Source of the DNA: Oscillospiraceae bacterium
Lineage (GTDB): Bacteria; Bacillota; Clostridia; Oscillospirales; Oscillospiraceae
Direction: 5' to 3'
DNA length: 59,376 nucleotides
NCBI GenBank assembly: GCA_017458335.1
Contig: JAFTFT010000011.1
Coordinates: 1-59,376, forward strand
Positions within the stretch are counted from its first letter, which is position 1, and each line of letters opens with the position of its first letter. Both the position numbers and the translations under genes were made by a program. The notes beneath the pieces were generated by a model. The model was not told the origin of the DNA. It saw nothing but the letters and a program-made list of their open reading frames with translations, and made no database searches. Positions 3,262 to 58,500 of the stretch are shown one piece after another.

Positions 3262-5748
3262 ATGCAATCATCACTGCCGTCCCGGAACCGCTCCGCCCTC
3301 GCGGGGAAGCTCCTGCTGCTGGGCTTCTTTCTGCTCGGCCTCTGGATCGTTTTCTACGGTCTGCGCGGCATGCGGGAATACGCGGCCTCCGGCTTCAGCT
3401 CGGAGACAGCGTATCAGGCAATCTATCACCTGCACCGGGAGACGGAAACCGCCTGGAACCGGAAGCTGTCACCCCAGCTGAAAGCTCTGTCCGGCGAGGA
3501 TCAGCTGCGCCTGCAGGAACTGACCGAACAGCTTGCCTCCTCCGCCTGGGAAAAGCAGAAGAAGGGCGGCGCCGCACTGGCGGACCTGCTCGCCGAAGAA
3601 GATGAAGACGAGCGCGAGGCGCTTGCGCAGAAGCTTCTCTATGCGGCCTATCTTGTAAACGGCCCCAAGGTGAGCACCGCAAACCGGAAGGCCGTCACAG
3701 CGCTGAGCGGCGACGAGGCCGGGGCCTTTCGTCTGCAGCTTCTCCGCTGTCTGTGCGACGAATCGGCCGAACTTCCGCCGACGGCGCAGAAGCTGGCCGG
3801 AGACTTAAGCGGAGAAGAACGTGCCGCCATGCTGATGCAGACCTGGTATGTCAGCAACGGCTCCGCCGACTCTGGTATAACCGAGCAGGTCAACACGCTG
3901 AAGAAGACTGTCCGGGACAAGTCGGCCCAGCTTGACGCCTTCCGCATGATCGCCCGCGGTGAGGTCTCCGTGACGGATCAGCTGGTGGTCGGACACAGCC
4001 GGACGGCGATTCTGATCGGCGTGATCATCGCCTTCAACGCGCTGCTCCTGGCTGTTCTGATGGCTGGCGATCGGACCTGGCAGCTGGATGTCAAGTGGCT
4101 GATCATTCTGCTGATCGTGGACTTCCTGCTCCTGTTTCAGCTCATGCCGCTGGTCTACATGCTGGTCAAGGCCTTCTTCCCGGAGGGCAGTTTCTCCCTC
4201 GAAACCATCCGCCGCCTGCACACCTACCCGCTGAATCTGGACGCGGTGAAAAACACGCTTATCGCAGCGAGCGCGACCATGGTGTTCGGAACGCTGCTCG
4301 CCTTCCCGCTGGCCTGGCTTGTGGGCCGCACGAATCTGTACGGTCGGAAGTTTTTCCGCGCGCTCTTTGTGCTCACCTACATGGTTCCGCCCTATGTCGG
4401 CGCCATGGCCTGGCTCCGCCTGCTCAATCCCAACGTCGGCACGGTCAATCAGTGGCTGCGCGCCCTTCTCCGCCTCAGCGACGCCCCGGGCCCCCTGAAC
4501 GTCTACAGTCTGCCCGGGATGATCTGGGTGCTGACCAGCTTCTACTATCCCTACGCCTTCATCACCATCAGCCGCGCCATGGAGAAGATGGATCCCTCTC
4601 TGGAGGAGGCCAGCCGTGTCAGCGGGGCCTCTCCGCTCAAGACCGTGTTCACCGTGACGCTGCCCATGATGCTGCCCTCGCTGATCTCCGGTGCGCTGCT
4701 GGTTTTCGTGAGCGCCATGAGCTGCTACGGCATTCCCTCGATCATCGGCAGTCCCGGGCGCGTACACACCGTCACCACGCGCATTGTGGAATATGTCTCT
4801 CTGGGCCAGCAGGGGCTTAACGACGCCACCGGCATGGCGGTGTTCCTGATGCTGCTGGCGGTGATCATTCTGTTCCTCTCGGATGTGGTTCTGGCAAAGC
4901 GGCAGTATATCACCGTGTCCGGCAAGTCCGTTCAGCCCGCCCTGGTGGAGCTGCGCCGCTGGAGAGTTCCGCTCACCGTGCTGGTCTCGCTCTTCGCGGT
5001 GATCGTCATCCTGATCCCCTTCACCACGATCCTGCTCACTTCCTTCAAGATCGATGTCGGCAAAAGTGCCCTGCAGGCCGGCAACTTCACCCTCAACAAC
5101 TGGAAGACGGTCTTCGGCCGGGTGGAAACCGTCAACAGTCTGAAGAACTCTTTTGTCTTCGCTTCCGTCGCGGCCACCGTCGGCATCGTCATCGCCTGCA
5201 CCATGAGCTATCTGCTGCAGCGCACACGCATCCGCGGACGCAAGGTCCCGGATTTCCTCATTACCCTGGGCTCCGGCACGCCCTCGGTCGTCATCGCCCT
5301 GGGTCTCATCATGACGATGAAGGGGAACTTCGGCATCAACATCTACAACACCGCCTATATCATGATCATCGCCTACCTGATCAAATACCTGATGATGGGC
5401 ATGCGCACCGTGGTCTCCGCCATGAGCCAGATTCATGTTTCCCTCGAGGAGAGCAGCCAGGTCTCCGGCGCGAGCTGGACCCGCACGATGTTCCGGATCA
5501 CGGGGCCGCTGATCTTTCCCTCCATCGCGGCGGGCTGGTTTCTCATCTTCATTCCCAGCTTCTATGAGCTCTCCATGACGACCCTGCTCTACTCCAGCAC
5601 GACCAAAACCATCGGCTTCCAGCTCTATGAGTACTGGACCTTTACCAGCCAGCCGATGAGCTGTGCGATGGCCTTCGGCATTCTGCTGATCGTCATGCTC
5701 ATCAACTTCATTCTCCACCGCCTGACGAAGGGCGAGTTCTCCATCTGA
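3262..5748 (+). CDS. Fused iron-type ABC permease with an extra N-terminal extracytoplasmic domain
   Basis: Membrane part of the importer (828 residues). Two permease halves are fused, each with an EAA loop for ATPase docking: EEASRVSGASPL near residue 448 and EESSQVSGASWT near 730. The likely start is the ATG at 3262 with GAAGG upstream. Unlike a standard FbpB, the protein opens with one membrane segment (about 17-34), followed by about 200 hydrophilic, Glu/Lys/Ala-rich residues, before the next segment near 248-270. That stretch should lie outside the cytoplasm and I recognise no domain in it. It sits between the binding protein and the ATPase in one operon. The permease call is firm; a role for the extra domain (receptor docking or sensing) is only a guess. 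Confidence 0.9.
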   Translation: MQSSLPSRNRSALAGKLLLLGFFLLGLWIVFYGLRGMREYAASGFSSETAYQAIYHLHRETETAWNRKLSPQLKALSGEDQLRLQELTEQLASSAWEKQKKGGAALADLLAEEDEDEREALAQKLLYAAYLVNGPKVSTANRKAVTALSGDEAGAFRLQLLRCLCDESAELPPTAQKLAGDLSGEERAAMLMQTWYVSNGSADSGITEQVNTLKKTVRDKSAQLDAFRMIARGEVSVTDQLVVGHSRTAILIGVIIAFNALLLAVLMAGDRTWQLDVKWLIILLIVDFLLLFQLMPLVYMLVKAFFPEGSFSLETIRRLHTYPLNLDAVKNTLIAASATMVFGTLLAFPLAWLVGRTNLYGRKFFRALFVLTYMVPPYVGAMAWLRLLNPNVGTVNQWLRALLRLSDAPGPLNVYSLPGMIWVLTSFYYPYAFITISRAMEKMDPSLEEASRVSGASPLKTVFTVTLPMMLPSLISGALLVFVSAMSCYGIPSIIGSPGRVHTVTTRIVEYVSLGQQGLNDATGMAVFLMLLAVIILFLSDVVLAKRQYITVSGKSVQPALVELRRWRVPLTVLVSLFAVIVILIPFTTILLTSFKIDVGKSALQAGNFTLNNWKTVFGRVETVNSLKNSFVFASVAATVGIVIACTMSYLLQRTRIRGRKVPDFLITLGSGTPSVVIALGLIMTMKGNFGINIYNTAYIMIIAYLIKYLMMGMRTVVSAMSQIHVSLEESSQVSGASWTRTMFRITGPLIFPSIAAGWFLIFIPSFYELSMTTLLYSSTTKTIGFQLYEYWTFTSQPMSCAMAFGILLIVMLINFILHRLTKGEFSI

Positions 5749-5762
5749 AAGGGGAAAGACCG

Positions 5763-6836
5763 ATGGCAACCGTGAATATTCAGAACGTCACCAAAGCATT
5801 CGGGGACAACGTGGTGCTCCGTGAGTTCAGCGCGACCTTCCGTGACGGCGAATTCATCACGCTTCTCGGCCCGTCCGGCTGCGGAAAGACGACCATGCTC
5901 CGCATCATCGCGGGCTTTGAAAAGCCCACCTCGGGTGAGGTATTCATCGACGGAACGCTGGTCTCGGGCGGCAAAACCTTCATTCCGCCGGAAAAGCGCG
6001 GCATCGGCATGGTTTTCCAGAGCTACGCCGTCTGGCCGCATATGAACGTGTTTGACAACGTGGCCTATCCCCTGACCATCCGGCATGTGCCCAGGGCCGA
6101 GATCAGAACCAGTGTGGAGCGCGTCCTCGGCATCGTGCATCTGAGCCGGTACGCCGATCGTTTCCCCAGCCAGCTCTCCGGAGGCCAGCAGCAGCGTGTT
6201 GCGCTGGCCCGCGCCCTGATAGCGGAACCGAAGCTTCTGCTGCTGGATGAGCCGCTGAGCAACCTCGACGCCAAGCTGCGCGAGTCCATGCGCTTTGAGA
6301 TCAAGGAGATCCAGCGCAGGCTGGGCATCACCGTGGTCTACGTGACCCATGACCAGACCGAAGCCATGACCATGAGCGACCGGATCTTCCTCATCAACCG
6401 CGGCGAGATTCAGCAGTGCGGCACGCCGCAGGAGATCTACAACAATCCTGTCAACCAGTTTGTCGCGGATTTTCTGGGCAAGGTGGACTTCTTCAAAGGC
6501 GAGGCAAAAGACGGCAGAATCGTCTTCCCTGCCATGGGCGGACAGAGCATCCCCTACGCCGGTCCCAGGACGGGAAAGGTCGACGTTGCCATCCGGCCGG
6601 AGAATCTTTTCTTCGCGGAGGACGGCGTCCTGCAGGGCGTTCTGGAAACCCAGTACTATCTCGGTGATGTGGACGACTGCCGCGTGCGTGTGGGTGATAC
6701 TCTGGTGCGCGTCATTACCAACGGCTATGACCACCAGAGTCTCCGGGACGGTCAGGCCGTCAGCCTCGGCGTACGGGACTTTATGGTTTTCGAAGATGAC
6801 GGACTTCTGGAACAGATGCTGGAGATCAACACCTGA
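5763..6836 (+). CDS. Iron-type ABC transporter ATP-binding protein (FbpC/AfuC-like)
   Basis: Cytoplasmic ATPase of 357 residues that powers the preceding permease; the start lies 14 bases after the permease stop, with AAAGGGGAAAG upstream. Walker A is GPSGCGKTT, the signature is LSGGQQQRV, Walker B is LLLLDEPLSNLD, and the switch His is in VTHDQTEAM. The C-terminal 120 residues form a TOBE-like regulatory domain (for example VAIRPENLFF). The length matches the FbpC/PotA/MalK group. The context of an iron-type binding protein and a fused permease favours ferric uptake, but this ATPase group serves several substrates. Confidence 0.93.
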   Translation: MATVNIQNVTKAFGDNVVLREFSATFRDGEFITLLGPSGCGKTTMLRIIAGFEKPTSGEVFIDGTLVSGGKTFIPPEKRGIGMVFQSYAVWPHMNVFDNVAYPLTIRHVPRAEIRTSVERVLGIVHLSRYADRFPSQLSGGQQQRVALARALIAEPKLLLLDEPLSNLDAKLRESMRFEIKEIQRRLGITVVYVTHDQTEAMTMSDRIFLINRGEIQQCGTPQEIYNNPVNQFVADFLGKVDFFKGEAKDGRIVFPAMGGQSIPYAGPRTGKVDVAIRPENLFFAEDGVLQGVLETQYYLGDVDDCRVRVGDTLVRVITNGYDHQSLRDGQAVSLGVRDFMVFEDDGLLEQMLEINT

Positions 6837-6854
6837 TTTCGATTTTCTTAGAGA

Positions 6855-6881
6855 AAATGCCACCCCGAAGGGTGGCACTTT
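6855..6881. terminator. Bidirectional terminator between the ABC operon and the phosphatase gene
   Basis: The arms TGCCACCC and GGGTGGCA (6858-6865, 6870-6877) enclose a CGAA loop. A-rich sequence precedes it and T-rich sequence follows, so it can stop the two convergent genes. Confidence 0.85.
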
Positions 6882-8690
6882 CTATTTCTGTTTACTATTG
6901 GGTCCTTTATACGTCAGGCACAGCATGGTCATGTCGTCGAACTGTTCCGCATCGCCGACGAAAGCATCTACGGCGTCCTTCACCCCGGTGAGAATCTCCC
7001 GCGGCGAGGCGTTCGCAAATGCGTTCAGTGCCCCAAGCATTCTTTCGGTTCCGAACAGTTCTCCCTTTTCGTCGGTTGCCTCCGGGACGCCATCGGTGTA
7101 CAGGAAGAGTTTATCGCCTTTCTCCAGCTGCAGTTCATACTCCCGATAGCGTACGTCGGCAAGGCCTCCGACCACGAAACTGTGCCTGTCCCTGCACAGC
7201 CGGAAACAGCCGTCCTGCATCACCGCCGGATACTCGTGCCCGGCATTTGCCGCTCTGATTGTTCCGGTGCTGATCTCCAGAATTCCCATCCAGACCGTCA
7301 CAAACATCTCCATCTGGTTGTTCGCGCAGATCAGATCATTCGTCATCGCAAGGATCTCTCCGACCGGCTTGCCGAGCATGGCGTTGTTTTTCAGGATCAC
7401 TTTGGACACCATCATGAACAATGCGCCCGGTACGCCTTTTCCGCTCACATCCGCCATCACCAAAGCCAGATGATCCTCGTCGATCATGAAAAAGTCGTAG
7501 AAATCCCCGCCGACTTCTCTGGCCGGTCTCATGCTCGCGTACAGATCGAATTCTTCTCTCTCCGGGAAAGGGGGAAAGATGTTGGGGAGCATACTGTTCT
7601 GAATCCGGGTCGCCATGTTCAATTCGGTTTTGATCCGTTCTTTTTCTGACGTCAGTGTTCTGAGGTTCTCGGTGTTTTCCACGATCCGGATCTGCATCGA
7701 ACGAATTTCCCGGCTGAGATCGCCGAGCTCATTCTGAGCCGGGATCTCAACCCGGCTGATTCTGTCCGCGGGCAGGGTTCCGTCTTCCTCCGGCGCAAAC
7801 TCCGTCGCCGCCTGCGAGAGCGCAGCGATCGGCTTTGTGATATGACGCCGCAACAGGTAGATGCAGACGACCGACGCCACTGCTGTCAGAGCAAGGACGT
7901 ACAGGATGCCCCGTATCACAAATCCGCGAAACTCCTTCACCGCCTCTGTCATATCATATTCCAGCCAGAGCCGGCCTTCCGCACCGTCCAGATCAAAAAG
8001 CACACAGCGCAGGAGCTGGTAGTTCGAAAGGACCTTCATCATGCGAGGAGTCTCAAATTCTGTCGGCGGCAGTTCGAAGAAGCTTTCTTTGAGGCCGAAG
8101 TCGTCAAGCCAGTCGCTGTCGTTGTTGCCCTTTTCATCGTAGGATACCCGGTATACGGTTCCGTCCTTGAGCACTTCGACACCGACTGCATCCAGATCGA
8201 TGGCCTCCATCGCATCTCTGACCGACAGGTCATAGGCGATGATATCGAAGAAAAGGCTCTCTCTGCCATATACGGGATCATTGCCCGTGAAGGACGGCGT
8301 CTCATCCATCCAGTCCAGGAAATGGTCATCTTCCGTAAAATGAGATTCCCGTGCCGCCTGCATTTCTTCCGTACCGAAAAGCTCTGCAAAGTAGGACAGA
8401 TATGGCGTAAAGTCTTCTGCCTTCACTTCATATTCCGACAGTTTTTTTGTAAACGGATCCAGGATCGCCCTGCGATAATTCACAGCGCTGATTGCCACCA
8501 GCAGCAGGGAGATACCAAGCGTGATTGCAACAATCAGGAGGTTTACCTGAACAGCCAGAGACATCCGGCGGCGCCTGTGCGTTGATTTTCTGTTCTCTGA
8601 TTCTATCTCAGTATATTGAATCTTCATACCGTTTTCTGATTCACGATCTCTGCTTCTTTCCCTGCAGACCTCGTGTTTCCCATCCTTCAT
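6882..8690 (-). CDS. Membrane-bound SpoIIE/RsbU-type PP2C phosphatase with HAMP domain
   Basis: Likely a signal-controlled serine phosphatase acting on an anti-sigma antagonist or a similar STAS partner. From the longest start: membrane segment about 48-70, an extracytoplasmic sensor of about 180 residues, a second segment about 255-277, a HAMP-like linker, a short coiled coil, then a SpoIIE phosphatase domain to the end. Seen motifs are [25 protein letters not shown] and [14 protein letters not shown], which carry the metal-binding Asp/Gly residues. The true start is uncertain: ATG at 8690 or the in-frame ATG at 8627, neither with a strong ribosome site. No partner anti-sigma kinase or STAS gene is visible nearby, so the target is unknown. 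It converges on the iron importer operon. Confidence 0.88.
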
Positions 8691-44175: not shown

Positions 44176-45267
44176 CTATTTTTCGTGCACGCCGTGTTTT
44201 CGCTCCCAGCGGCGTCTCTGCTGTTTGCGGATGGCCTCCTGGGTCTTTTCCGAGAGATCGGGCAGGATGTCGTCCTCCAGCTTTGTCTTGATCTGTTTGC
44301 CGCTCTGAAGCGCCACAATGATCAGCATCACCAGCGGGAAGAGCAGCAGCACCGTCCCCAGGAAGCAGCAGAGCGCCCCCCAGTCCTCGGTCATTCTGGC
44401 CGCGTTCTCCCAGTACGGAAGCACCGCGCCGCTGGTCTGGCTGCCCCGCGAGCCGAAGTGAATCACCTGGTCCATCATCTTCCCGTAGCCGTATCGCTCC
44501 GTGTTGCAGATGATCTCGCCGCGGCCGATCGGGAACTTGTCCTTCACGGCGTTCAGGGCGAAATTCTTGACCGGGTTCGCCATCAGCACCTCGTAGCAGT
44601 TGATCTTGGCGTCCGGGTTGATCGTCAGCAGCGTGTCATAACTCATGTAGAGATCCAGGCCGTCGCTGTTGGACTTTTTGCTTGCGCGATCCTGTTCCTG
44701 CTCCACCACGCCCGCGATGACATAGGGCGTGCCGTTGAGCTTCATCGTCATGCCCGCCAGATCCGTTCCGCCGAAGAGCAGCCAGGCCACTTCTTCCCCG
44801 AGAACAATCCGGTCCTTCATCAGATCCGACTGGCGGATATAGTCCCCGCTCAGCAGCTGCAGCGGGTGAAAGTCGAAGTAATCGCCGCCCACGGCGATGA
44901 CCGAGGCTTCCCCTCTTCCGTGCTCGCCGCTGGTATAGAGCTTCGCCGTCGTGCTCCAGGCATCCACCATCAGATGGCGGTTGTTCATCACGTCCAGCGC
45001 TGCGTCCTGCATCTTCTTCAGCGCCGCGTTCCGGAAGGTCGAAATTTCTTTCAGCCCGATCATCTGGTCCGCCGGCAGAAAGCAGCTGATCTGGCTGAAT
45101 TTCAGATCGCCGTCGCCCTGCCAGCGTTCAGCGGCTTTCTGAGAATCCAGCACATGGGCAAAGTATTGCCACGCGCCGAAGCAGAGCACCGCCGCGGCCA
45201 CCATCGACACACAGACGATCAGCAGGATGTACGACTGCCGTTTTCGTCTTTTCCCGGTCCGCTTCAT
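44176..45267 (-). CDS. MacB-like periplasmic-core protein with two membrane spans
   Basis: A 363-residue protein. An N-terminal span (about 12-35), an extracytoplasmic domain resembling the MacB periplasmic core (VIAVGGDYFDFHPLQLLSGD, IVLGEEVAWLLFGG, MTMKLNGTPYVIAGVV), a second span (about 305-327) and a charged tail ending in KHGVHEK. A full FtsX/MacB permease has four spans; here the last three-span module is missing, so it is a reduced form. It overlaps the HlyD-like gene by four bases (ATGA) and is the last gene of the operon. Without an ATPase it cannot pump alone; a role as a periplasmic sensor or clamp with the HlyD-like partner is inference. Confidence 0.72.
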   Translation of the reverse strand: MKRTGKRRKRQSYILLIVCVSMVAAAVLCFGAWQYFAHVLDSQKAAERWQGDGDLKFSQISCFLPADQMIGLKEISTFRNAALKKMQDAALDVMNNRHLMVDAWSTTAKLYTSGEHGRGEASVIAVGGDYFDFHPLQLLSGDYIRQSDLMKDRIVLGEEVAWLLFGGTDLAGMTMKLNGTPYVIAGVVEQEQDRASKKSNSDGLDLYMSYDTLLTINPDAKINCYEVLMANPVKNFALNAVKDKFPIGRGEIICNTERYGYGKMMDQVIHFGSRGSQTSGAVLPYWENAARMTEDWGALCCFLGTVLLLFPLVMLIIVALQSGKQIKTKLEDDILPDLSEKTQEAIRKQQRRRWERKHGVHEK

Positions 45268-47444
45268 GCACTCGTCGCCAGACGCACCAGCTCACCGTTC
45301 TTCAACGGGCTGCTGCTGCTTGTGATCACATAGTCTCCGTAACCGAGCTCTGCGCTCACGGCCGTGTTCGTGTCGTCCACCGCCAGGACCTCCACCGGCA
45401 CGCGCCGCGCGAGGTAGCGGTTTCCGAGCGGAGAGTTCTTCGACTCCAGCTTCAGGACATAGGTTCCGTTGGCATCCGTGCGGACGGAGCTGCTGGGGAT
45501 GATGACGTCATAGTTGGCGCTCTTCTGTCCCACGGAGAGGGTCAGCTCGGTTCCGCTGGTCACGTTGCCGTTCAGATCAAAGGTCAGGATCTTGTTGGTC
45601 TGGGGATTCTTCTGGTCGATCTTGATGGAGGTAAGGGTCGCGGTGATCTCGCTGCCCCAGTAGAAGTTCGACACCGTCGCCGTATCGCCCACACGAAGGC
45701 GGTTGGCCTGGTCGTTCGTCACCGAGAAGGACAAGGTGTAGCCCATGTCCGGCGCCTCGATGGTGGCGATCACGTCGTCTTTCTTCTTGGTGTCGCCGGG
45801 AGATGCGTCCAGCGTCTGGATGGTGCCGGCAACCTTCGCCGTCACCGTGGCCTCTTCCCCGCCGAGCAGATCGTCGAGCTTTTCCTGAGCCCGCTGGATC
45901 TGCTGCCAGAGGTTGGCAAGGTCTACGTTGTAACCGGCAAGAGTCGTTTCGTTGGAAGAAATTTTTTCGCGCAAAGATGCTTTTGCTGTTTCATAGTTAA
46001 GCTGGGCATTTCTGAGCGCTTCTTTTGCATACTGCAGTTCACTGTTCATTTTAGGATCCAGTGTTGCCCAGAGTGAATCAAATTCAGCCTGGCACTTTTC
46101 TAAATAAAGTATCGCTGCATCCAGGTCCTCTCTTGAGACACTTTTCAGATCGATTGCTAACTCTTCAAGCTGTGTATTGCTTATTCCCTGACTCACCAAG
46201 CTGGCTATTTCCGCATTGATTGCGATAATCTTTGTTTGTGGGTCTACCGGATACTGTCCTTCAATAGCAGCCTTTTCAGCTTCTTTCTCACTCTTTGCTG
46301 TCTCGATTGTTGTTTTTTCAGTTTCGTAATTTGACTTTTCCCATTCCTGCCCTGAAATCATCTGTTCCAGTTCGGCTTTTCGTTGTTCTTTCCCTGAAAA
46401 CTCAGCCTGCTTAGTATTAATCTCAGTCTGCTTTTCTGTAATCTGTTGGGTGACTATCTCATACTGTCTATTAATTTCTTTTGCATTGTCTTCATCCATC
46501 TGACCAGCTTGGAGATTATAACTTAAGCGATTCTGTTCATCAATTAGTGCCTGTAGATCCGCTTCAAGCGTTTCCATTGTTCCGGTGATTTCTCGGTTTA
46601 TTTCATCAATCTCATTTTGCGTGCTGTCGATTTCAGCCTGCTTTGCCGCAATTTGTTCGTTTTTACTTGTTATGTCAGAATCCAGTTGATTTATGGTTTC
46701 CTGAATGGCAGCAATCTCGGATTGTGCTGCATCATACTCCGCCTTTTCCTGCTTCGCAGCTTCGAGTTCCTCATTTTTCAGGTCAATCTGTTTCTGTACA
46801 TATTCAGGCTGGTTCTCCTTAGCCTGACGCAATTCGCTCTCCAACCCAGAAATATCGTCGTTATATATTTTTTCGATCGTATCTTTCAATAACTGAGCTG
46901 CAGCGAGCCGCTCTTTTGCCTGAGCGAGCTCAGTATCAGTATCTCTCTGTCTTGCTTCCAGTTCCTGGTTCAGTCTGTTTTCAATATCTTTAACCTTGTT
47001 TTCTGCATCTACATAAGCCTGACGATACGATTCAATTCTCAACTGATCGGCACTATAGCTGAAGTCCGGGATCGTGGCCGCCGTGCGGTTGTAGCTGGCC
47101 TGCAGGTTCTGGAGTTTCTCTTCCGCGGCGTCGATCTCTTCGCTGGCGCCTTCGCCGAGGGTGAAGAGCACGTCGCCCGCCTCAACCTTCTGGCCGACCT
47201 TCACCAGCACGCTGCGGATGACACGGGTCCGGTCCATCTTGACCTGGGTGTTGCTGTTGGCCTGGACGGTACCGGTGCCGCGCACGCGCGCGACGATGCT
47301 GCCGCTCTCGACCTCCTGGGTCGCGACCTCCGGCAGGCTGCGGTTCATGATGGTGTTGGAGAAGAAGGTAAGCACAAGAAGCACCACGAGGAAAATGATC
47401 GCGGCGTTCTTGACCCAGTCTCTGTTTCTCGGTTGTTCGTGCAT
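45264..47444 (-). CDS. Giant HlyD/MacA-like membrane-fusion protein with coiled-coil middle
   Basis: A 726-residue protein with a membrane anchor (about 14-32), a barrel-sandwich strand (GTGTVQANSNTQVKM, VLVKVGQKVEAGDVLFTLGE), a very long heptad-rich coiled coil (about 131-520), the returning lipoyl-like half (ATVTAKVAGTIQTLDASPGD) and beta-barrel parts (VGDTATVSNFYWGSEITATL). Standard MacA proteins have a hairpin of about 60-100 residues; here it is several times longer. The DNA for roughly residues 131-495 (about 45960-47050) is clearly more AT-rich, with different codon use from both flanks. That suggests the coiled coil was swapped in or evolves separately. It is third in the operon and four-base coupled to the MacB-like gene. 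Confidence 0.85.
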   Translation of the reverse strand: MHEQPRNRDWVKNAAIIFLVVLLVLTFFSNTIMNRSLPEVATQEVESGSIVARVRGTGTVQANSNTQVKMDRTRVIRSVLVKVGQKVEAGDVLFTLGEGASEEIDAAEEKLQNLQASYNRTAATIPDFSYSADQLRIESYRQAYVDAENKVKDIENRLNQELEARQRDTDTELAQAKERLAAAQLLKDTIEKIYNDDISGLESELRQAKENQPEYVQKQIDLKNEELEAAKQEKAEYDAAQSEIAAIQETINQLDSDITSKNEQIAAKQAEIDSTQNEIDEINREITGTMETLEADLQALIDEQNRLSYNLQAGQMDEDNAKEINRQYEIVTQQITEKQTEINTKQAEFSGKEQRKAELEQMISGQEWEKSNYETEKTTIETAKSEKEAEKAAIEGQYPVDPQTKIIAINAEIASLVSQGISNTQLEELAIDLKSVSREDLDAAILYLEKCQAEFDSLWATLDPKMNSELQYAKEALRNAQLNYETAKASLREKISSNETTLAGYNVDLANLWQQIQRAQEKLDDLLGGEEATVTAKVAGTIQTLDASPGDTKKKDDVIATIEAPDMGYTLSFSVTNDQANRLRVGDTATVSNFYWGSEITATLTSIKIDQKNPQTNKILTFDLNGNVTSGTELTLSVGQKSANYDVIIPSSSVRTDANGTYVLKLESKNSPLGNRYLARRVPVEVLAVDDTNTAVSAELGYGDYVITSSSSPLKNGELVRLATSA

Positions 47445-49433: not shown

Positions 49434-50420
49434 TTACCAGGTTTCCTCCAGGCAGTATCTTTTCACAATATGGCGGTCCGATCCCTCCGTGAACCGGAAT
49501 CCTGCCGCGAAATAGCCGATATAAGGGTCGATCTCATACCAGACCGCCGCGCTGCACTTTTCACTGCGGATCAGGTCAAATGCCTTCTCCAGACTGGACC
49601 CGTAAAAGAAATGAACCAGCTCCAGCTCTGTTCCTTCCGAGTTGACCCAGGGATTTCTGTCCCAGATCACCTGATAGTCATTGATGCGTTCCAGATCGAG
49701 TCCGTCAAACTCCACGATGTAGAGCCCTTCGATATACTCGCCCGTCTCGGACGGGTAATAATAGAGGAAGGTATAGTGCTGCTTCGCCTTCGTGGTCTCG
49801 TCCAGATACTGTTTGAACGCGAGGCCCTGTTCCAGATCCGCTCCGTCATACTTTCTGTAAAAGGTGATGCGGATGTCCGAACCGCTGTATCGGTTTTCAT
49901 AGACATCCCTGCCTTCGCAGTAAAAGGTGGGAGCCCCGATCTCATTGGTCCGCTTCGAGACCTTGTAATAGCGCGTACCGCCCTCGCCCCAGGGTTCGAT
50001 GTAGTATCCTCCGGTACGGACGGTTTTCTCGTTCCGCCGGCCGGGTCCCTTGTCTCCCAGACCGGGATTGCCGTAATAGTCCAGGTACTCGTCCTTGATC
50101 CACCGGGCACGGCGCTGCGAATCGATGATGACACAGGCCATATCCTTCCGATATGCAAGAACCGTAACCGCCTCATGGTCATTCACGGTGTACCTTGACC
50201 CCTTGCGGTCTGCCGAACCGTAGCAGTACACGCTGTGTCCCCCCGGCGCCGCTACCGTTGCATAGACGTAAGAACTGAGGTATTCGCTGCTCTTCGGGTA
50301 TTCAATCTGAGAGCCGATTGCCCTCAGATCGGCCTCGCTCGGCGCACCGGCTGCGGATGCGGCAGGGAGCAGCGTCAGCATCATGACCAGTACACACAGC
50401 ATCGCGAGAGTTTTCTTCAT
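49434..50420 (-). CDS. Secreted protein, novel paralogous family with N-terminal SH3-like module
   Basis: A 328-residue secreted protein (signal about 1-23, SAAG). The N-terminal half (about 45-120) carries a small beta module, APGGHSVYCYGS with RARWIKDEYLD, shared with the protein at 55198. The C-terminal 200 residues match the proteins at 54083 and 56417: IRITFYRKYDG, NPWVNSEGTELEL and a closing block DRHIVKRYCLEETW. I recognise no known family. The AAAGGAG site is 12 bases from ATG 50420. It follows two YD-repeat genes co-directionally. The Tyr/Trp-rich sequence suggests binding to surface polymer or cell wall, but this is unproven. Confidence 0.75.
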   Translation of the reverse strand: MKKTLAMLCVLVMMLTLLPAASAAGAPSEADLRAIGSQIEYPKSSEYLSSYVYATVAAPGGHSVYCYGSADRKGSRYTVNDHEAVTVLAYRKDMACVIIDSQRRARWIKDEYLDYYGNPGLGDKGPGRRNEKTVRTGGYYIEPWGEGGTRYYKVSKRTNEIGAPTFYCEGRDVYENRYSGSDIRITFYRKYDGADLEQGLAFKQYLDETTKAKQHYTFLYYYPSETGEYIEGLYIVEFDGLDLERINDYQVIWDRNPWVNSEGTELELVHFFYGSSLEKAFDLIRSEKCSAAVWYEIDPYIGYFAAGFRFTEGSDRHIVKRYCLEETW

Positions 50421-51818: not shown

Positions 51819-52205
51819 CCTTTTTCTCTCCTTTCAGCCCGTCGGTTCTCTGTATTCTGCCGCTTCCGCCGCTGCGTTCTTCTTTCATCGGGAGGATCTG
51901 CTCCCGCGGGATCACCGTTCCGGCCGTGGCTCCTGTTCATAGGACAGCGCCCACACATCCGAGTAGGCGCAGAGCGGGTCCTCGGACAGCATGCACATCA
52001 GCACGAAACATTCATAGGCATTCTGGACATACTGCGTTCCATGGATTCATTCTCTTCACCACAACACACAAGATTCTGTCCCATTTTATACTGTTTAACG
52101 GTATTCTTTGCCGTGTGAGGCATAGCATTTCGTTAATGAGTATAACATGATCGGCGGTCCGATACAATCCCAATCTCGCCCCTGAATCCCGCCGTAAAAT
52201 GTGTG
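51819..52205. other. Intergenic stretch with one gene fragment
   Basis: No intact gene is seen. A minus-strand coding fragment occupies about 51912-52040. The remaining sequence up to the peptide-gene promoter shows no clear promoter for the YD protein. Confidence 0.5.
51912..52040 (-). pseudogene. C-terminal fragment of an unidentified protein
   Basis: A minus-strand frame ending in TGA at 51914-51912 reads about 40 codons (…YVQNAYECFVLMCMLSED then PLCAYSDVWALSYEQEP…) with normal codon use but no start codon; a stop lies just upstream. It looks like the tail of a lost gene. The parent is unknown. Confidence 0.35.
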
Positions 52206-52234
52206 CTTGTTCTGTGACGGATCCCGTGCTATAC
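52206..52234 (+). promoter_or_regulatory. Promoter of the double-glycine peptide gene
   Basis: TTGTTC (52206-52211) and TATACT (52229-52234), spaced by 17 bases. Confidence 0.65.
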
Positions 52235-52302
52235 TGAGTCCGTAAACAGCAGGATACCGAAACACGACAGGTGCCGCCACCGAGCGGAGAAAGGAAGCAG
52301 CC

Positions 52303-52506
52303 ATGATCAAAGAAGTTACAAATGAAAAAGAGAGAGTGCTCTCCCTCGACGAGCTGGAAAACGTCAGCGGCGGAACGATCTTCCAGTCCACCGACCATTA
52401 CGGCCGTCCGATCTATAACGTCTACAACGACAGGACCAATCAGTTTGTCGCCAGCTTCTACAGCCTGTACGAGGCCGTAAACTGCAACCTGCGCACAAAC
52501 GGATAA
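52303..52506 (+). CDS. Double-glycine-leader secreted peptide (bacteriocin- or pheromone-like)
   Basis: A 67-residue peptide precursor. ATG 52303 has AAGGA 7 bases upstream and its own promoter and terminator. Residues 1-24 form a classic double-glycine leader, with the sequence LSLDELENVSGG immediately before the cleavage point, the type removed and exported by peptidase-containing ABC transporters. The predicted mature peptide is 43 residues, Tyr/Asn-rich, with one Cys (TIFQSTDHYGRPIYNVYN, then SLYEAVNCNLRTNG). No PCAT-type exporter, immunity gene or modification enzyme occurs in the window. The 3' end is duplicated at 53907-54013. It could be a bacteriocin or a signalling peptide. Confidence 0.75.
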   Translation: MIKEVTNEKERVLSLDELENVSGGTIFQSTDHYGRPIYNVYNDRTNQFVASFYSLYEAVNCNLRTNG

Positions 52507-52537
52507 GCAGAACGTTCCTCCATGCACAGTGCCCCGG
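52431..52537 (+). repeat. 107-bp direct repeat, copy A (peptide gene 3' end)
   Basis: Matches 53907-54013 with three single-base differences and no gaps. It covers the last 25 codons of the double-glycine peptide gene, its stop and the first terminator arm. Confidence 0.93.
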
Positions 52538-52560
52538 GGCCGAACCCGGGGCGCTTTTGT
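52531..52560 (+). terminator. Terminator of the double-glycine peptide gene
   Basis: Perfect arms GCCCCGGG (52531-52538) and CCCGGGGC (52545-52552), followed by GCTTTTGTCTTTC. Confidence 0.85.
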
Positions 52561-52663: not shown

Positions 52664-53956
52664 ATGGGGAAAAAGCTGCCGATCGGCATACAGAGCTTTG
52701 AAAGCCTGCGAGATGACGGATATGCCTATGTGGATAAAACTGCATACATCTACCGTCTGGCACATGAGGGAAAACCGTATTTCCTGAGTCGGCCGAGGCG
52801 ATTCGGAAAGAGCCTTCTTCTGTCTGCCATGAAGGCCTACTGGGAGGGGAAGAAAGGACTCTTCTCCGGCCTTGCCATCGAAGAGCTGGAAAAGGACAAC
52901 CCTGACGCATGGCGCAGCTATCCGGTATTCTACTTTGACTTTAACGGTGTGAACTATCGGCACATCGGCGCGCTGGAAGGGATTCTGGATGAGCAGTTGA
53001 GGCGGTGGGAAGCGGCATATCAGGTGCCTGCGGAAAAAGAAAACCTGGGCAAACGATTCCGAAACCTTCTGATTGCCGCAAAAGAGCAGACCGGTCTCCG
53101 CTGCGTTGTGCTGGTCGATGAATATGACAAGCCGCTCCTGGACGTCGTTGATCAGTCGGAACTGCAGGAGCACAACAAAGAGGTTTTTAAAGGCTTTTTC
53201 AGCACGCTGAAGAGCTTTGACGAGTATCTCCAGTTTGTCTTCATCACCGGTGTATCGAAATTTCACAAGGTCAGCATTTTCAGCGATCTGAATCAGCTCC
53301 GGGATATTTCCATGGTGGAGAATTACGCTGCGCTGTGCGGGATCACCGAGGCCGAGATTGATACGTACTTTTCTGAAGAGATCGCCGATTTTGCGGAGCG
53401 CAGAAAAATGTCGGTTCAGGAGTGCCGTGAAGCCCTGAAACGGCAGTATGACGGATATCATTTTCATCCGGAGGGAGAATCGGTATATAATCCGTTCAGC
53501 CTGCTTGGGGCGCTGATGGAGAAAGACTTCGGCTATTACTGGTTTGAGACCGGAACGCCGACCTTTCTGGTAAAAAAACTGAAGGACAGCGCTTTTGATA
53601 TCCGTAAATTTACGGATCGAACCCTGTATGCCAGCGAAGGGATGCTGAAAGACTATACCGGCGACAGTCTGGATCCGGTACCGTTGCTCTACCAGACAGG
53701 ATATCTGACCATCGTCGATTATGACAGCGTCGGACGTGAGTACACGCTTGGCTTCCCCAATGAAGAGGTCAAGTACGGCTTTGTTGAATGCCTGATGCCG
53801 GTATTTGTGACCGACTGCGGAGCCGGTTCCGGGAACGATATCTTCACCCTGAGAAGATACATTGAGCGCGGGGACCTGGATCACGTCAGGAAAGAGTTCC
53901 AAGCGCCAGGACCAATCAGTTTGTCGCCGGCTTCTACAGCCTGTACGAGGCCGTAA
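52664..53956 (+). CDS. AAA-ATPase-like / PD-(D/E)XK family protein, C-terminus lost by recombination
   Basis: GGAGG lies 8 bases before ATG 52664. Residues 1-414 match the AAA-ATPase-like proteins common in gut anaerobes: LPIGIQSFESLRDDGYAYVD, the P-loop variant RPRRFGKSLLLSAM, VVLVDEYDKPLLD, FVFITGVSKFHKVSIFS and YDGYHF. Intact members run to 500 or more residues with a C-terminal PD-(D/E)XK nuclease-like domain. Here the frame jumps at about 53907 into the 3' end of a second double-glycine peptide gene copy, read out of its native frame, and stops at residue 430. The nuclease half is missing. The gene is likely non-functional or reduced. Confidence 0.85.
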   Translation: MGKKLPIGIQSFESLRDDGYAYVDKTAYIYRLAHEGKPYFLSRPRRFGKSLLLSAMKAYWEGKKGLFSGLAIEELEKDNPDAWRSYPVFYFDFNGVNYRHIGALEGILDEQLRRWEAAYQVPAEKENLGKRFRNLLIAAKEQTGLRCVVLVDEYDKPLLDVVDQSELQEHNKEVFKGFFSTLKSFDEYLQFVFITGVSKFHKVSIFSDLNQLRDISMVENYAALCGITEAEIDTYFSEEIADFAERRKMSVQECREALKRQYDGYHFHPEGESVYNPFSLLGALMEKDFGYYWFETGTPTFLVKKLKDSAFDIRKFTDRTLYASEGMLKDYTGDSLDPVPLLYQTGYLTIVDYDSVGREYTLGFPNEEVKYGFVECLMPVFVTDCGAGSGNDIFTLRRYIERGDLDHVRKEFQAPGPISLSPASTACTRP

Positions 53957-54013
53957 ACTGCAACCTGCGCACAAACGGATAAGCAGGACGTTCCTCCATG
54001 CACAGCGCCCCGG
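53907..54013 (+). repeat. 107-bp direct repeat, copy B (orphan 3' end of a peptide gene)
   Basis: This copy has no leader-encoding part; it is joined directly to the truncated AAA-ATPase-like gene. The 25-codon mature-peptide tail would be intact in its own frame. Confidence 0.93.
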
Positions 54014-54082: not shown

Positions 54083-54763
54083 TTAATCCCAGGTCTCGTA
54101 AACACAGTAGCGCCGGACGATATGCCTGTCGAAGCCTTCCGTAAAGATCATGCCAAAGGATGAATTCTCCGCTTTCGTATTCCCGTAAATTGTCAGCACC
54201 GCGCTGCATCCCTGGTTCCACAGTTCACGGAAACTGTCAGATCTCTCTCCCCAGTCGCCGTACTCCAGGTTAAGGGTTGTTCCGTTTGAATTGACAAACG
54301 GATTCCAGTCCCAGAGGCATTCAAAGTGATAATCCCAGCGGGGATTCAGGCCTTCAACCAGATAGACAATCGTTACCTTTTCCTCGTACCCGTACTGATT
54401 GGAGGTGGCGACATAGTATCCGGCGTGGCGCTGGGAAGCCGTGCTGTGATCCAGAAGATATCGATAGAAGGCATCGGCCTGCGCATTGCTGTGGATATTA
54501 TAAGAACGGAAAAATGTGATTCTCACGCCGTTTTCCGTATTCTTTGAATAGTAGACATCCCAGGGTGTTTTGATAAACGTCGGGGTTTCATCCAGTTCCG
54601 AACTGTTTTGATAGACATAGTAGTAGTCGTTGCCGTCCAGCGTTTCATGATGGATTTTATACGATGCTGCCTCTGCGGAGCCGAAAGGCAATCCTGAAAA
54701 GGCGGTCAGTAATAAAGCGACGATCAGCAGGATTCTGCCAGCGGTTTTAAAACGGTTTTTCAT
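54083..54763 (-). CDS. Secreted protein, novel paralogous family
   Basis: A 226-residue secreted protein with a signal peptide (about 1-31, ending SAEA). GGAGG lies 9 bases before ATG 54763. The mature part is almost entirely the unrecognised domain shared with the proteins at 49434 and 56417: DYYYVYQNSS, VRITFFRSYN, NPFVNSNGTTLNLEYGD and the ending DRHIVRRYCVYETWD, nearly the same as the C-terminus of the 49434 protein (DRHIVKRYCLEETW). Many Tyr, Trp and His residues are present. No catalytic motif is evident. It lies convergent to the truncated ATPase-like gene. Confidence 0.78.
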   Translation of the reverse strand: MKNRFKTAGRILLIVALLLTAFSGLPFGSAEAASYKIHHETLDGNDYYYVYQNSSELDETPTFIKTPWDVYYSKNTENGVRITFFRSYNIHSNAQADAFYRYLLDHSTASQRHAGYYVATSNQYGYEEKVTIVYLVEGLNPRWDYHFECLWDWNPFVNSNGTTLNLEYGDWGERSDSFRELWNQGCSAVLTIYGNTKAENSSFGMIFTEGFDRHIVRRYCVYETWD

Positions 54764-54888: not shown

Positions 54889-55053
54889 TTATTCCTTTTC
54901 GTTCCAACTGAATTGTTCCCCGCAGAATGCTATGAAAATGAATCGGATTTGACCGATCTGTATCTTATCGCGATTGACAAGGACCTCCAATCTGTCTGCT
55001 TCTCTCTCATTCACATAAACTGTTTCCGTATCGGAAAGAACATTAATGAAAAT
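54889..55053 (-). pseudogene. C-terminal fragment of an FHA-type protein gene
   Basis: The minus-strand frame from about 55053 to a TAA at 54891-54889 reads a coherent protein tail (ETVYVNEREADRLEVLV, RDKIQIGQIRFIFIAFCGEQ) that closely matches the end of the intact FHA-domain protein at 57818. There is no start. The upstream boundary coincides with the 79-bp repeat, so recombination at that repeat probably removed the rest. Confidence 0.8.
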
Positions 55054-56368: not shown

Positions 56369-56416
56369 GGAAATACTTCGATTTCATTCGACGTGGAAAG
56401 GAAGGAGAAAGGCACA

Positions 56417-57082
56417 ATGAAAAGAATCCTCGCATTTCTGCTGGCTGCGGTCTTGATTTTCGGGACGTTTCCCGCCGTTTTCGCCGTGGAAGCGTCCGCT
56501 GCTTCAAACTATACGGTTGAACAGTGGGGACATAACGGTACATACTATTATCTTGTTCACAATGCTTCATCCCCTGAGCAGGAATATACTTTCTTCAGAT
56601 GGGCATCTGATATTTACACGAGCAGGGACAAAAAAATAAAAATCACTTTTTACACTGCCGATTCCGTCTTGACAACCGACGGTCAGGCCGAAGCGTTCAC
56701 ACAGTACCTGACGGCGCATTCTAAAAACAAGTATTGCTACAGCGGTTATTATTGCAACCGCGTAGTTGTTTTCGGTGAGAGTGAGATGTACCATTTTGCT
56801 TTCAAGATCGAGGGCTGGGATCCGAAAGGTGATATCAAGAAACTCACCGGCCAGGTTTACAGGAATTCTGAAGGAGAAGAACTTCGTGTGAACTATATAG
56901 ACCGCGGTGATGTTGTTGCAGAGCAGTGGACGCAGGCGATCACCGAGTTGTATTCCAGTATCGTGCATCTGGATATTCCGAACCCCAAAGACGGGGTCAC
57001 TGTCGGCTTCCGTTTCCGGTACAACGGTTTTGATACCTATGAGTATTTTCTCGGCAGCGCCATTGAGACTTTCCCGTTCTAA
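56417..57082 (+). CDS. Secreted protein, novel paralogous family
   Basis: A 221-residue secreted protein. ATG 56417 follows a GGAAGGAGAAAGG stretch. The signal is MKRILAFLLAAVLIFGTFP to about AASN. The mature domain aligns with those at 49434 and 54083: TYYYLVHNASSPEQ, IKITFYTADS, YRNSEGEELRVNYIDRGDVV and GVTVGFRFRYNGFDTYEYF. The closing HIV-RYC-ETW block of the other two is absent, so this copy belongs to a second branch together with the fragment at 57468 (shared GVTVG-RF and GRGNV/DRGDV signatures). The function is unknown. Confidence 0.76.
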   Translation: MKRILAFLLAAVLIFGTFPAVFAVEASAASNYTVEQWGHNGTYYYLVHNASSPEQEYTFFRWASDIYTSRDKKIKITFYTADSVLTTDGQAEAFTQYLTAHSKNKYCYSGYYCNRVVVFGESEMYHFAFKIEGWDPKGDIKKLTGQVYRNSEGEELRVNYIDRGDVVAEQWTQAITELYSSIVHLDIPNPKDGVTVGFRFRYNGFDTYEYFLGSAIETFPF

Positions 57083-57817: not shown

Positions 57818-58363
57818 TCAAAATCGCTTGTAAGGCTCATAATCGTTTTCCTGTTCCCGGCCGTTTTCGTCCCACGTGAATTCTTCTCCGCAGAATGCTA
57901 TGAAAACGAACTGGATTTGACCTATTTGTATCTTATCGCGGTTCACAATGACCTCCAGACGGTTCACTTGTCTCTCGTTGACAAGAACTGTTTCCATATC
58001 TGAAGAAACTTCAAGAAGAAACGTTCGATCCGTTTCATCATACACAAGCATCAATCGTCTGGCACTGATCTGTGTCTTACTGACGACGAGTGTGCCCAGT
58101 TTCCAGGAAATATAATTGTACCCGGTTCTGAGCGTATAGGCTTCCCCTCTGTTCTCTCCGCTGATACATACAAGCCAGCCCACAACCGGTTCAGGATGTT
58201 CCAGGCTCCTCGGTGGGGGCGGTCCATATAACAACGGGATGACATCTATGTCATCTTCTTTCAATAAAGGCATCAAATCGACGAATGTGTCCTGCGTTGA
58301 CTGTATTTCCTCAATCAGATCCGGACCGTCATTTTCTCCGTTGAAATTGAAACGTCTTTTCAT
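57818..58363 (-). CDS. FHA-domain protein
   Basis: A 181-residue cytoplasmic protein. ATG 58363 is preceded by GGAG. The first 70 residues are acidic and unstructured (NGENDGPDLIEEIQS, LMPLLKEDDIDVIPLLYG). A forkhead-associated domain follows: VGWLVCISGENRGEAYTLRTG, ISARRLMLVYDE and VLVNERQVNRLEVIVNRDKI, with the strand pattern and the RDKIQIGQ tail typical of the family. It should bind phosphothreonine peptides. No Ser/Thr kinase is present in the window. It overlaps a 46-codon upstream ORF by ATGA. A fragment of a paralogue lies at 54889. Confidence 0.82.
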   Translation of the reverse strand: MKRRFNFNGENDGPDLIEEIQSTQDTFVDLMPLLKEDDIDVIPLLYGPPPPRSLEHPEPVVGWLVCISGENRGEAYTLRTGYNYISWKLGTLVVSKTQISARRLMLVYDETDRTFLLEVSSDMETVLVNERQVNRLEVIVNRDKIQIGQIQFVFIAFCGEEFTWDENGREQENDYEPYKRF

Positions 58364-58500
58364 ATCTTCACTCCTTCTGATTTTTCCCCGCCGGATGTTT
58401 CTCTCCATTTTACAAACTTTCTTTCTCCATTTACATCATGTACAGCGTCGCACACAACTTGTGATCTTTCAGATCGGCTCAGTCTGATTTGCGCTTTCAT
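58360..58500 (-). CDS. Small ORF translationally coupled to the FHA-domain gene
   Basis: 46 codons from ATG 58500 to TGA 58362-58360, with AGAGG upstream and a promoter at 58529-58557. The product is small and charged (MKAQIRLSRSERSQVVCD, then VNGERKFVKWRETSGG). Its stop overlaps the FHA start as ATGA, the layout of coupled genes. It may be a real small protein or a leader that controls FHA translation; I know no relative. Confidence 0.5.
   Translation of the reverse strand: MKAQIRLSRSERSQVVCDAVHDVNGERKFVKWRETSGGEKSEGVKI

Follow-up and report, generated by a model that had tools for sequence, protein, structure and literature searches.

What does a short gene with a double-glycine (GG) leader do in a genome in which no exporter for such leaders is visible? 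The window, that is, the whole 59,376-nt stretch analysed here, is contig C41 of the Oscillospiraceae assembly G000 (2.95 Mb, 44 contigs, 83.7% complete). It carries one such gene, and a preliminary description had proposed that it encodes an undescribed bacteriocin or signal peptide. Judging from sequence comparisons, we consider instead, with a probability of roughly 0.63, that its product is a small folded, GG-tagged exported protein from a jointly regulated group whose exported members often bind the cell wall. The features of the locus are as follows.

52202-52235, forward strand: regulon box, with half-site TGTGCT at 52202-52207, half-site TGTGAC at 52213-52218, an 11-nt spacer and the -10 element TATACT at 52230-52235
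52290-52297, forward strand: ribosome-binding site (RBS) AAAGGAAG, five bases 5′ of the ATG (from the sequence)
52303-52506, forward strand: peptide ORF, 67 aa (from the translated sequence)
52303-52374, forward strand: double-glycine leader of 24 codons, ending in LSLDELENVSGG (from the sequence)
52375-52503, forward strand: mature peptide, 43 aa, predicted beta-beta-beta-alpha (AlphaFold2 single-sequence model)
52528-52555, forward strand: intrinsic terminator hairpin of 11 pairs (9 G-C), strong (sequence scan)
52664-53956, forward strand: ORF with an AAA-ATPase_like domain (PF09820, residues 6-206; Pfam)
53904-54013, forward strand: partial second copy of the 3′ end and 3′ UTR of the peptide gene, 106 of 110 positions identical (96%)

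The peptide gene and its surroundings

The ORF at 52303-52506 is exactly as first described, with a GG leader and a mature part of 43 residues that contains a single Cys. Leaders of this type end in two Gly and are hydrophobic at positions -4 and -7, with acidic residues ahead of these. The full 24-residue leader, MIKEVTNEKERVLSLDELENVSGG, has this motif by its sequence (VLSLDELENVSGG). The mature part has 6 Asn, 5 Tyr and 1 Cys; with 3 Arg, no Lys, 3 Asp/Glu and 1 His it is not cationic. Pfam gave no match to the ORF. Of its five sub-threshold NCBIfam matches, four were to GG-leader, RiPP or bacteriocin models; the sub-threshold matches included NF038167 (17.2 of 32 bits, E 0.0044), TIGR01847 (12.9 of 15.7 bits) and TIGR03949. 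TIGR03793 and TIGR03798 were absent among the NCBIfam matches at E <= 1, and the leader is not the long nitrile-hydratase- or Nif11-like leader of NHLP/N11P precursors. A near-identical leader, ALSLDELENVSGG, is found on a LysM-like protein of Eubacteriales bacterium S32M (locus L035; LysM score 4.9e-6, just below the cut-off), the mature domain of which is unrelated to the window peptide.

The mature sequence had been called unfamiliar, and it stayed so: it belongs to no family recognised in Pfam or NCBIfam, and searches of phage, plasmid and viral-contig sequences with the peptide found no relative. A single-sequence search of 393 other genomes of the order returned no convincing homologue of the mature part; the lone match (35% identity, E 0.0017) falls within an ORF of 763 aa and was judged to be due to chance.

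Modeled by AlphaFold2 without an alignment, the peptide forms strands at residues 25-30, 36-42 and 47-52 followed by a helix at 55-66, with pLDDT values of 77 to 91 by ten-residue block from residue 21 onward. A Foldseek search of the PDB with this model returned nothing significant. UPF0339/YegP-like domains ranked 4th (2k7i, E 0.53) and 44th (3bid, E 2.4), neither significant; we take both entries to be UPF0339 proteins. UPF0339 domains have the beta-beta-beta-alpha order predicted for the window peptide, but Pfam shows no sequence match between them.

Other GG peptides look similar. We built a profile from the window peptide and two look-alikes that had been picked for their apparent similarity to it. 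This profile retrieved a GG peptide on contig C11 of G000 (E 1.4e-19), a score probably driven by the look-alikes. It also retrieved a frame on C30 of G000 and, in G274, two peptides encoded next to a radical SAM enzyme. The C30 frame (locus L121, 4986-5183, reverse strand) is beta-beta-beta-alpha-like, contains NGGYIYD and has no evident start codon; it lies directly 3′ of a gene at 5174-8083, also on the reverse strand, that looks NRPS-like by eye. The look-alike set comprised loci L103, L037, L117, L119, L115 and L118, to which L162 and L171 were later added. Profiles of four subsets from which the window peptide had been left out gave its mature part E values of 0.0018, 0.13, 2 and 87 (13,238 sequences searched), and with two of the four it outscored all 2000 shuffles. 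The kinship of the window peptide to the similar beta-beta-beta-alpha GG peptides is thus no more than suggestive.

The locus bears traces of rearrangement. The second copy at 53904-54013, a direct repeat that the preliminary description did not mention, lacks the start, the leader and the box, and is therefore a fragment. The last codons of the PF09820 ORF run into this duplicated 3′ end and the ORF has no second domain over threshold, so it looks 3′-truncated by rearrangement; it is probably context, outside the peptide system. Another partial duplication is seen in the short ORF at 54889-55014 on the reverse strand, which repeats the C terminus (RLEVxVNRDKIQIGQI) of an ORF that appears FHA-domain-like by eye (57818-58408, reverse strand).

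The gene had also been placed amid genes for secreted proteins, and our reading bears this out: five neighboring ORFs, at 49434, 50832, 54083, 55198 and 56393, have signal-peptide-like N termini. Three of them (49434-50420, 54083-54763 and 56393-57082) share by eye the motifs ITFYRKY, ITFFRSY and ITFYTAD and are apparently paralogous secreted proteins; no NCBIfam family passed its cut-off for any of the three, nor did a Pfam family for the first two. Among the flanking ORFs scanned with Pfam and NCBIfam, no immunity-like or dedicated exporter gene was recognised and none matched Radical_SAM. A HlyD-like/MacB-like pair at 44176-47444 was considered as the cognate exporter and rejected, as it has no peptidase C39 match and appears to be another type of transporter.

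A tandem-repeat promoter box and the genes behind it

By-eye alignment of upstream regions revealed that the GG genes of the window, C11 and C25 share TGTGAC followed by TATACT eleven bases on. At locus L037 of G024, TGTGAC similarly stands eleven bases before TATCTT, and in most GG ORFs with this arrangement another TGTGAC-like hexamer lies eleven bases 5′ of the first. The box thus has the form TGTG(AC)-N5-TGTGAC-N11-TATACT. In the window, the second half-site and the -10 element are perfect, the first half-site (TGTGCT) matches at 4 of 6 positions, the 11-nt spacer ends in the TG-N of an extended -10, and 67 nt separate the box from the ATG. A scan for sigma-70 consensus promoters near the gene found none. 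The proposal that the gene has its own promoter and terminator thus held for the hairpin at 52528-52555 and, on the promoter side, for a box with a perfect -10 rather than for a consensus sigma-70 promoter.

We searched whole genomes with a pattern that is independent of GG genes, TGTGNNNNNNNTGTGAYN11TANNNT, and counted as regulon boxes those within about 250 nt upstream of a start, as is the case for the window gene. The pattern occurs at 16 sites in G000, against 0 for the reversed-pattern control, and at 179 sites in 17 of 41 genomes of the genus, against a single reversed-pattern match; 15 of the 41 have at least two boxes. With a score of at least 11.5, the box precedes 41 of 71 GG-leader ORFs (almost all from this genus, a few from others; one boxed gene, L074/L102, is counted twice), compared with 1 of 1420 mononucleotide shuffles. 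It also precedes 5 of 232 control ORFs, two of which turned out to be GG ORFs missed by the motif. The association of the box with GG genes is beyond chance. The consensus of 110 sites, gTGTGAC-aSTTS-TGTGAY-n6-TGTG-n-TATacT, corresponds to an extended -10; this logo is biased because many loci were chosen for a GG gene or a box, whereas the whole-genome counts are unbiased.

Beyond the genus, 200 genomes of the family (four of them of this genus) yielded five non-genus genomes with one box match each, compared with five reversed-pattern matches in total, so that the box is near chance level there, except perhaps in G585 and G594. The G585 copy (C250, 577-610; TGTGACACTTCTGTGATACTTCGTGTGTTATGAT) is apparently a genuine box in another genus of the family, and is apparently the result of transfer or of a contaminating contig.

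What stands behind the boxes is varied. The preliminary description had suggested a search for sister peptides, and this was fruitful: in G000, 11 of the 16 boxes are followed by a GG-leader ORF, the window gene and ten others (first ORF read by eye). By-eye counts gave 9 of 20 boxes for G024. For G009 the count was 2 of 8, with one further ORF ending in Gly-Ala. No GG gene follows 5 of the 16 boxes of G000, 11 of the 20 of G024 and 5 or 6 of the 8 of G009; several of these precede ORFs that by eye have a signal peptide or membrane segment, including TlpA-like secreted proteins, and two in G000 have no downstream ORF under the ORF rule used. When 109 boxes were sorted by a strict motif, 57 had GG ORFs, 19 Sec/TM-like ORFs, 26 other ORFs and 7 no ORF, against 36 GG per 1000 random positions; the “other” class includes GG ORFs missed by the strict motif, and many of these loci were chosen for a GG gene or a box, so we give more weight to the whole-genome counts. 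The definition of the GG motif differs between these counts, those for G000, G024 and G009 having been made by eye. Irrespective of the box, a DNA pattern for the end of the GG leader matched in 28 of the 41 genus genomes. Short GG-leader ORFs were separated from chance matches in long proteins by reading the ORFs: pattern matches in long or antisense frames were rejected, as were ELxGVWGG matches inside a conserved protein of roughly 817 aa.

Several boxed genes encode recognizable wall-binding modules. Pfam identified LysM (8.6e-18) and GW (3.3e-4, over the cut-off) in box-controlled cargo of G000, with SH3_3 at 1.5e-4 below the cut-off, and CW_7 (1.2e-30) in that of G009. The eleven boxed GG genes of G000 include three for LysM proteins (C4 and C33 by Pfam, C43 by eye) and two for SH3/GW-like proteins (C35 and C31), and two further boxed peptides, on C11 and C31, look beta-beta-beta-alpha. 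Other mature parts behind GG leaders are PP-binding-like (4.3e-7), cysteine-rich ribbons (by eye) or unnamed, and most are dissimilar to one another. At locus L080 (G010:C100, reverse strand), the leader LSLDQLENVSGG stands on a PP-binding (carrier protein) domain (E 4e-7) whose usual attachment Ser is apparently replaced (by eye); this ORF has no RBS under the RBS rule used. As box-controlled cargo includes LysM, CW_7 and GW/SH3 modules, GG looks like a general export tag here for small, often wall-binding proteins.

A regulator that tracks the box, and the exporter

Response regulators adjoin several exporters of the genus. Pfam found a receiver domain in all six that we scanned, and Trans_reg_C over the cut-off in one, just below it in four and not at all in one. 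One type of regulator tracks the box and adjoins LysM GG genes in the loci read. Its orthologues (>= 66% identity) occur in 13 genomes, all of them among the 15 that have two or more boxes; the 26 others have none (Fisher 6e-9). All 13 also have a peptidase C39 domain (Fisher 3e-5); since the genomes are related, both Fisher values overstate independence. In 9 of the 13, regulator and C39 gene lie on one contig, 1.5 to 7.2 kb apart. In Pfam this regulator shows a receiver domain and a weak Trans_reg_C match (E 0.018), with no match to BTA; in our reading it is putatively SARP-like.

Exporters with a C39 domain are present in 22 of the 41 genus genomes, among which G000 is counted. Exporter typing by NCBIfam covered two genomes, G007 and G062. 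The G007 exporter reached 943 bits with TIGR03796 (cut-off 853) and 716 bits with TIGR03797 (cut-off 709), and that of G062 912 bits with TIGR03796, over its cut-off. Two NHLM loci (L099, 14265-14696; L103, 398-829) encode a HlyD-like partner of about 143 aa whose match to TIGR03794 covers the N-terminal part alone. Nine genomes have C39 and fewer than two boxes, so the exporter can occur independently of the box.

In G000, including the window, PF03412 (C39) had no match at E <= 0.001, while the same search was positive in 8 of 14 genomes as a control. A full-length exporter of a congener found at best a 28% identical full-length match in G000; among the matches listed, the alignments start at residue 168 or later, past the peptidase part. 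The gene had been described as lacking a visible exporter, which these searches uphold, and the preliminary description had named the absence of a C39 exporter from the genome as a finding that would refute it. Taken literally, that absence is what the PF03412 search shows. We give it no decisive weight, since completeness of the assembly is 84% and C39 occurs in more than half of the genus genomes and in every genome with the regulator. On C11, a 702-aa ABC exporter ends 71 nt before a GG peptide and was considered as a C39-less exporter. We rejected it: only ABC_membrane and ABC_tran are over their cut-offs, and the peptide has its own box, so that their adjacency is probably incidental.

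The box-tracking regulator likewise has no orthologue in G000, where the best matches are 35% and 29% identical. This genome (84% complete) and G009 (65%) both have boxes and GG genes with neither the regulator nor C39. Contig C18 of G000 (locus L207, 26001-45000) carries, without an intervening exporter, a sensor kinase, a second SARP-like regulator with 57% identity to one of G013, and a secreted protein of a kind typical of exporter neighborhoods. Where its alignments exceed 300 residues, the secreted protein is about 41 to 59% identical to its counterparts, several of which lie beside LysM GG genes in other genomes. An NRPS-like gene and a MATE-type protein gene, both by eye, adjoin this group. 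The contig end on C33, next to a LysM GG gene, was considered as the site of the missing regulator and rejected, as it carries an apparent ribosomal protein L20.

As regulator and exporter often form one locus, a single missing contig could explain both absences, and we think it probable that both genes lie in the missing part of the G000 assembly. The C18 neighborhood without an exporter argues for a real loss; that the cassette was lost and the GG genes left stranded seems to us the less likely course, because eleven GG genes keep their leaders and boxes. Otherwise, another transporter would serve the GG genes of G000.

Proposed role, alternatives and known systems

We propose the following mechanism. 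A SARP-like response regulator would bind the tandem TGTGAC repeats, 11 bp apart, and activate the set of genes behind the box. A C39 exporter, of NHLM type (TIGR03796 with TIGR03797) where typed, would recognize the leader and cut after GG. The 43-residue mature domain would then have an extracellular role, most likely in or close to the envelope together with the LysM, CW_7 and GW/SH3 proteins; it is the co-regulated genes that suggest envelope action for it, and a domain of 43 aa without a known family may have another function. More broadly, and with slightly less assurance than for the peptide itself, we think it likely that in part of the genus a SARP-like regulator drives a secretion regulon through these boxes. 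This regulon would send unlike small GG-tagged proteins (LysM, CW_7, GW/SH3, zinc-ribbon-like, beta-beta-beta-alpha) to an NHLM-type C39 transporter alongside Sec-type proteins, and would amount to regulated surface remodelling.

The initial idea of a bacteriocin or signal peptide agrees in outline with an exported GG peptide, and it is the specific role that is unsupported. An unmodified class II-type bacteriocin, exported as a 43-mer that kills related bacteria, would fit the small size, the lack of a convincing homologue of the mature part in the order, and a leader that resembles class II leaders (the sub-threshold TIGR01847 and TIGR03949 matches). We hold it to be unlikely, as the mature part is not cationic and is predicted to fold as beta-beta-beta-alpha, the flanking ORFs scanned contain no recognised immunity or dedicated exporter gene, and the gene is co-regulated with LysM, CW_7 and GW proteins. 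A pheromone sensed by histidine kinase/SARP-like regulator pairs, inducing the box regulon, is somewhat less probable still. GG peptides are classic inducers of kinase-regulator pairs in streptococci, and here such pairs adjoin exporters, with one pair in G000. A pheromone would be expected to track its receptor, however, whereas the mature part is poorly conserved, with one weak match, in the 763-aa ORF, among the 393 other genomes of the order, and many unlike cargos stand behind the box.

A precursor of a radical-SAM-modified RiPP is very improbable. Loci L123 (G274) and L103 (G062) do combine related-looking beta-beta-beta-alpha GG peptides with a Radical_SAM enzyme, but the window's flanking ORFs that were scanned have no such match, no radical SAM enzyme was recognised by eye beside the G000 look-alikes on C11 and C31, and the relatedness of the mature parts is no more than suggestive. 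The gene might instead be stranded, that is, still transcribed after loss of the exporter cassette, its product unexported and drifting. The missing C39 match and box-tracking regulator in G000, the C18 neighborhood minus the cassette and the broken partial copy adjoining the peptide gene all fit this picture. We nevertheless consider it doubtful, though the likeliest of the four alternatives, since eleven GG ORFs retain leaders and boxes, the assembly is rated incomplete, and the one further genome that combines two or more boxes with a lack of C39 has a completeness of 65%. Our preferred reading thus remains that of an exported member of the box-controlled, often wall-binding set.

If the proposed regulon is real, part of the genus has a surface-remodelling program that relies on an exporter family known from natural-product precursors. 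GG-leader ORFs are readily taken for bacteriocins; since the same tag is found on folded wall-binding domains and uncharacterized mini-proteins under one box, envelope proteins may be hidden among the “orphan bacteriocins” of this and similar bacteria. With the box as a DNA marker, all members of the set can easily be listed in any genome of the genus, as with the 16 sites of G000, and regulator, exporter and cargo can be tested together.

The individual parts are of known kinds; their combination, i.e., box, SARP-like regulator and wall-module cargo, was not met in searches of the open-licence literature, of which titles and the beginnings of abstracts held no recognised description of such a box or of LysM/CW_7 GG cargo. 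The main text of a survey of rumen bacteriocins does not mention LysM or SH3 (PMC13289728). Small-protein type I secretion, as outlined in PMC10231218, likewise exports diverse small proteins, in that case recombinant ones in Gram-negative bacteria.

In promoters of SARP activators such as AfsR, by published account, direct repeats recur at 11 or 22 bp, and 8 bp lie between the final repeat and the -10 (PMC10936776). In line with that account, the genus boxes have repeats with an 11-bp period just upstream of the -10 and a weak or absent -35, and the genus regulators have a receiver and an OmpR-like C-terminal domain. In contrast to it, the repeat is TGTGAC and 11 nt rather than 8 separate the hexamer from the -10. 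Unlike Streptomyces SARPs, the genus proteins are response regulators, and their binding to the box is putative.

The NHLM/NHLP export system is defined by TIGR03796, TIGR03797 and TIGR03794 (Haft et al. 2010, PMC2887384). Compared with its outline there, the typed genus exporters similarly match TIGR03796, cargo genes are often distant from the exporter, and the leaders end in Gly-Gly. The differences are that the window leader has 24 aa and is not a long NHase or Nif11 leader, that in place of Cys/Ser/Thr-rich cores several genus cargos have folded wall-binding domains, and that two genus loci have a short HlyD-like partner covering only the N-terminal part of TIGR03794.

A parallel for the cargo is MAM of Faecalibacterium, presented as a GG-leader envelope protein, not a bacteriocin, for which C39 ABC export has been proposed (PMC8836110, PMC12184118). 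According to these descriptions, mature MAM has 12.1 kDa and is very abundant, and in certain strains its gene is close to that of a C39 transporter. MAM is larger than the window peptide, and we draw the parallel from the descriptions rather than from sequence.
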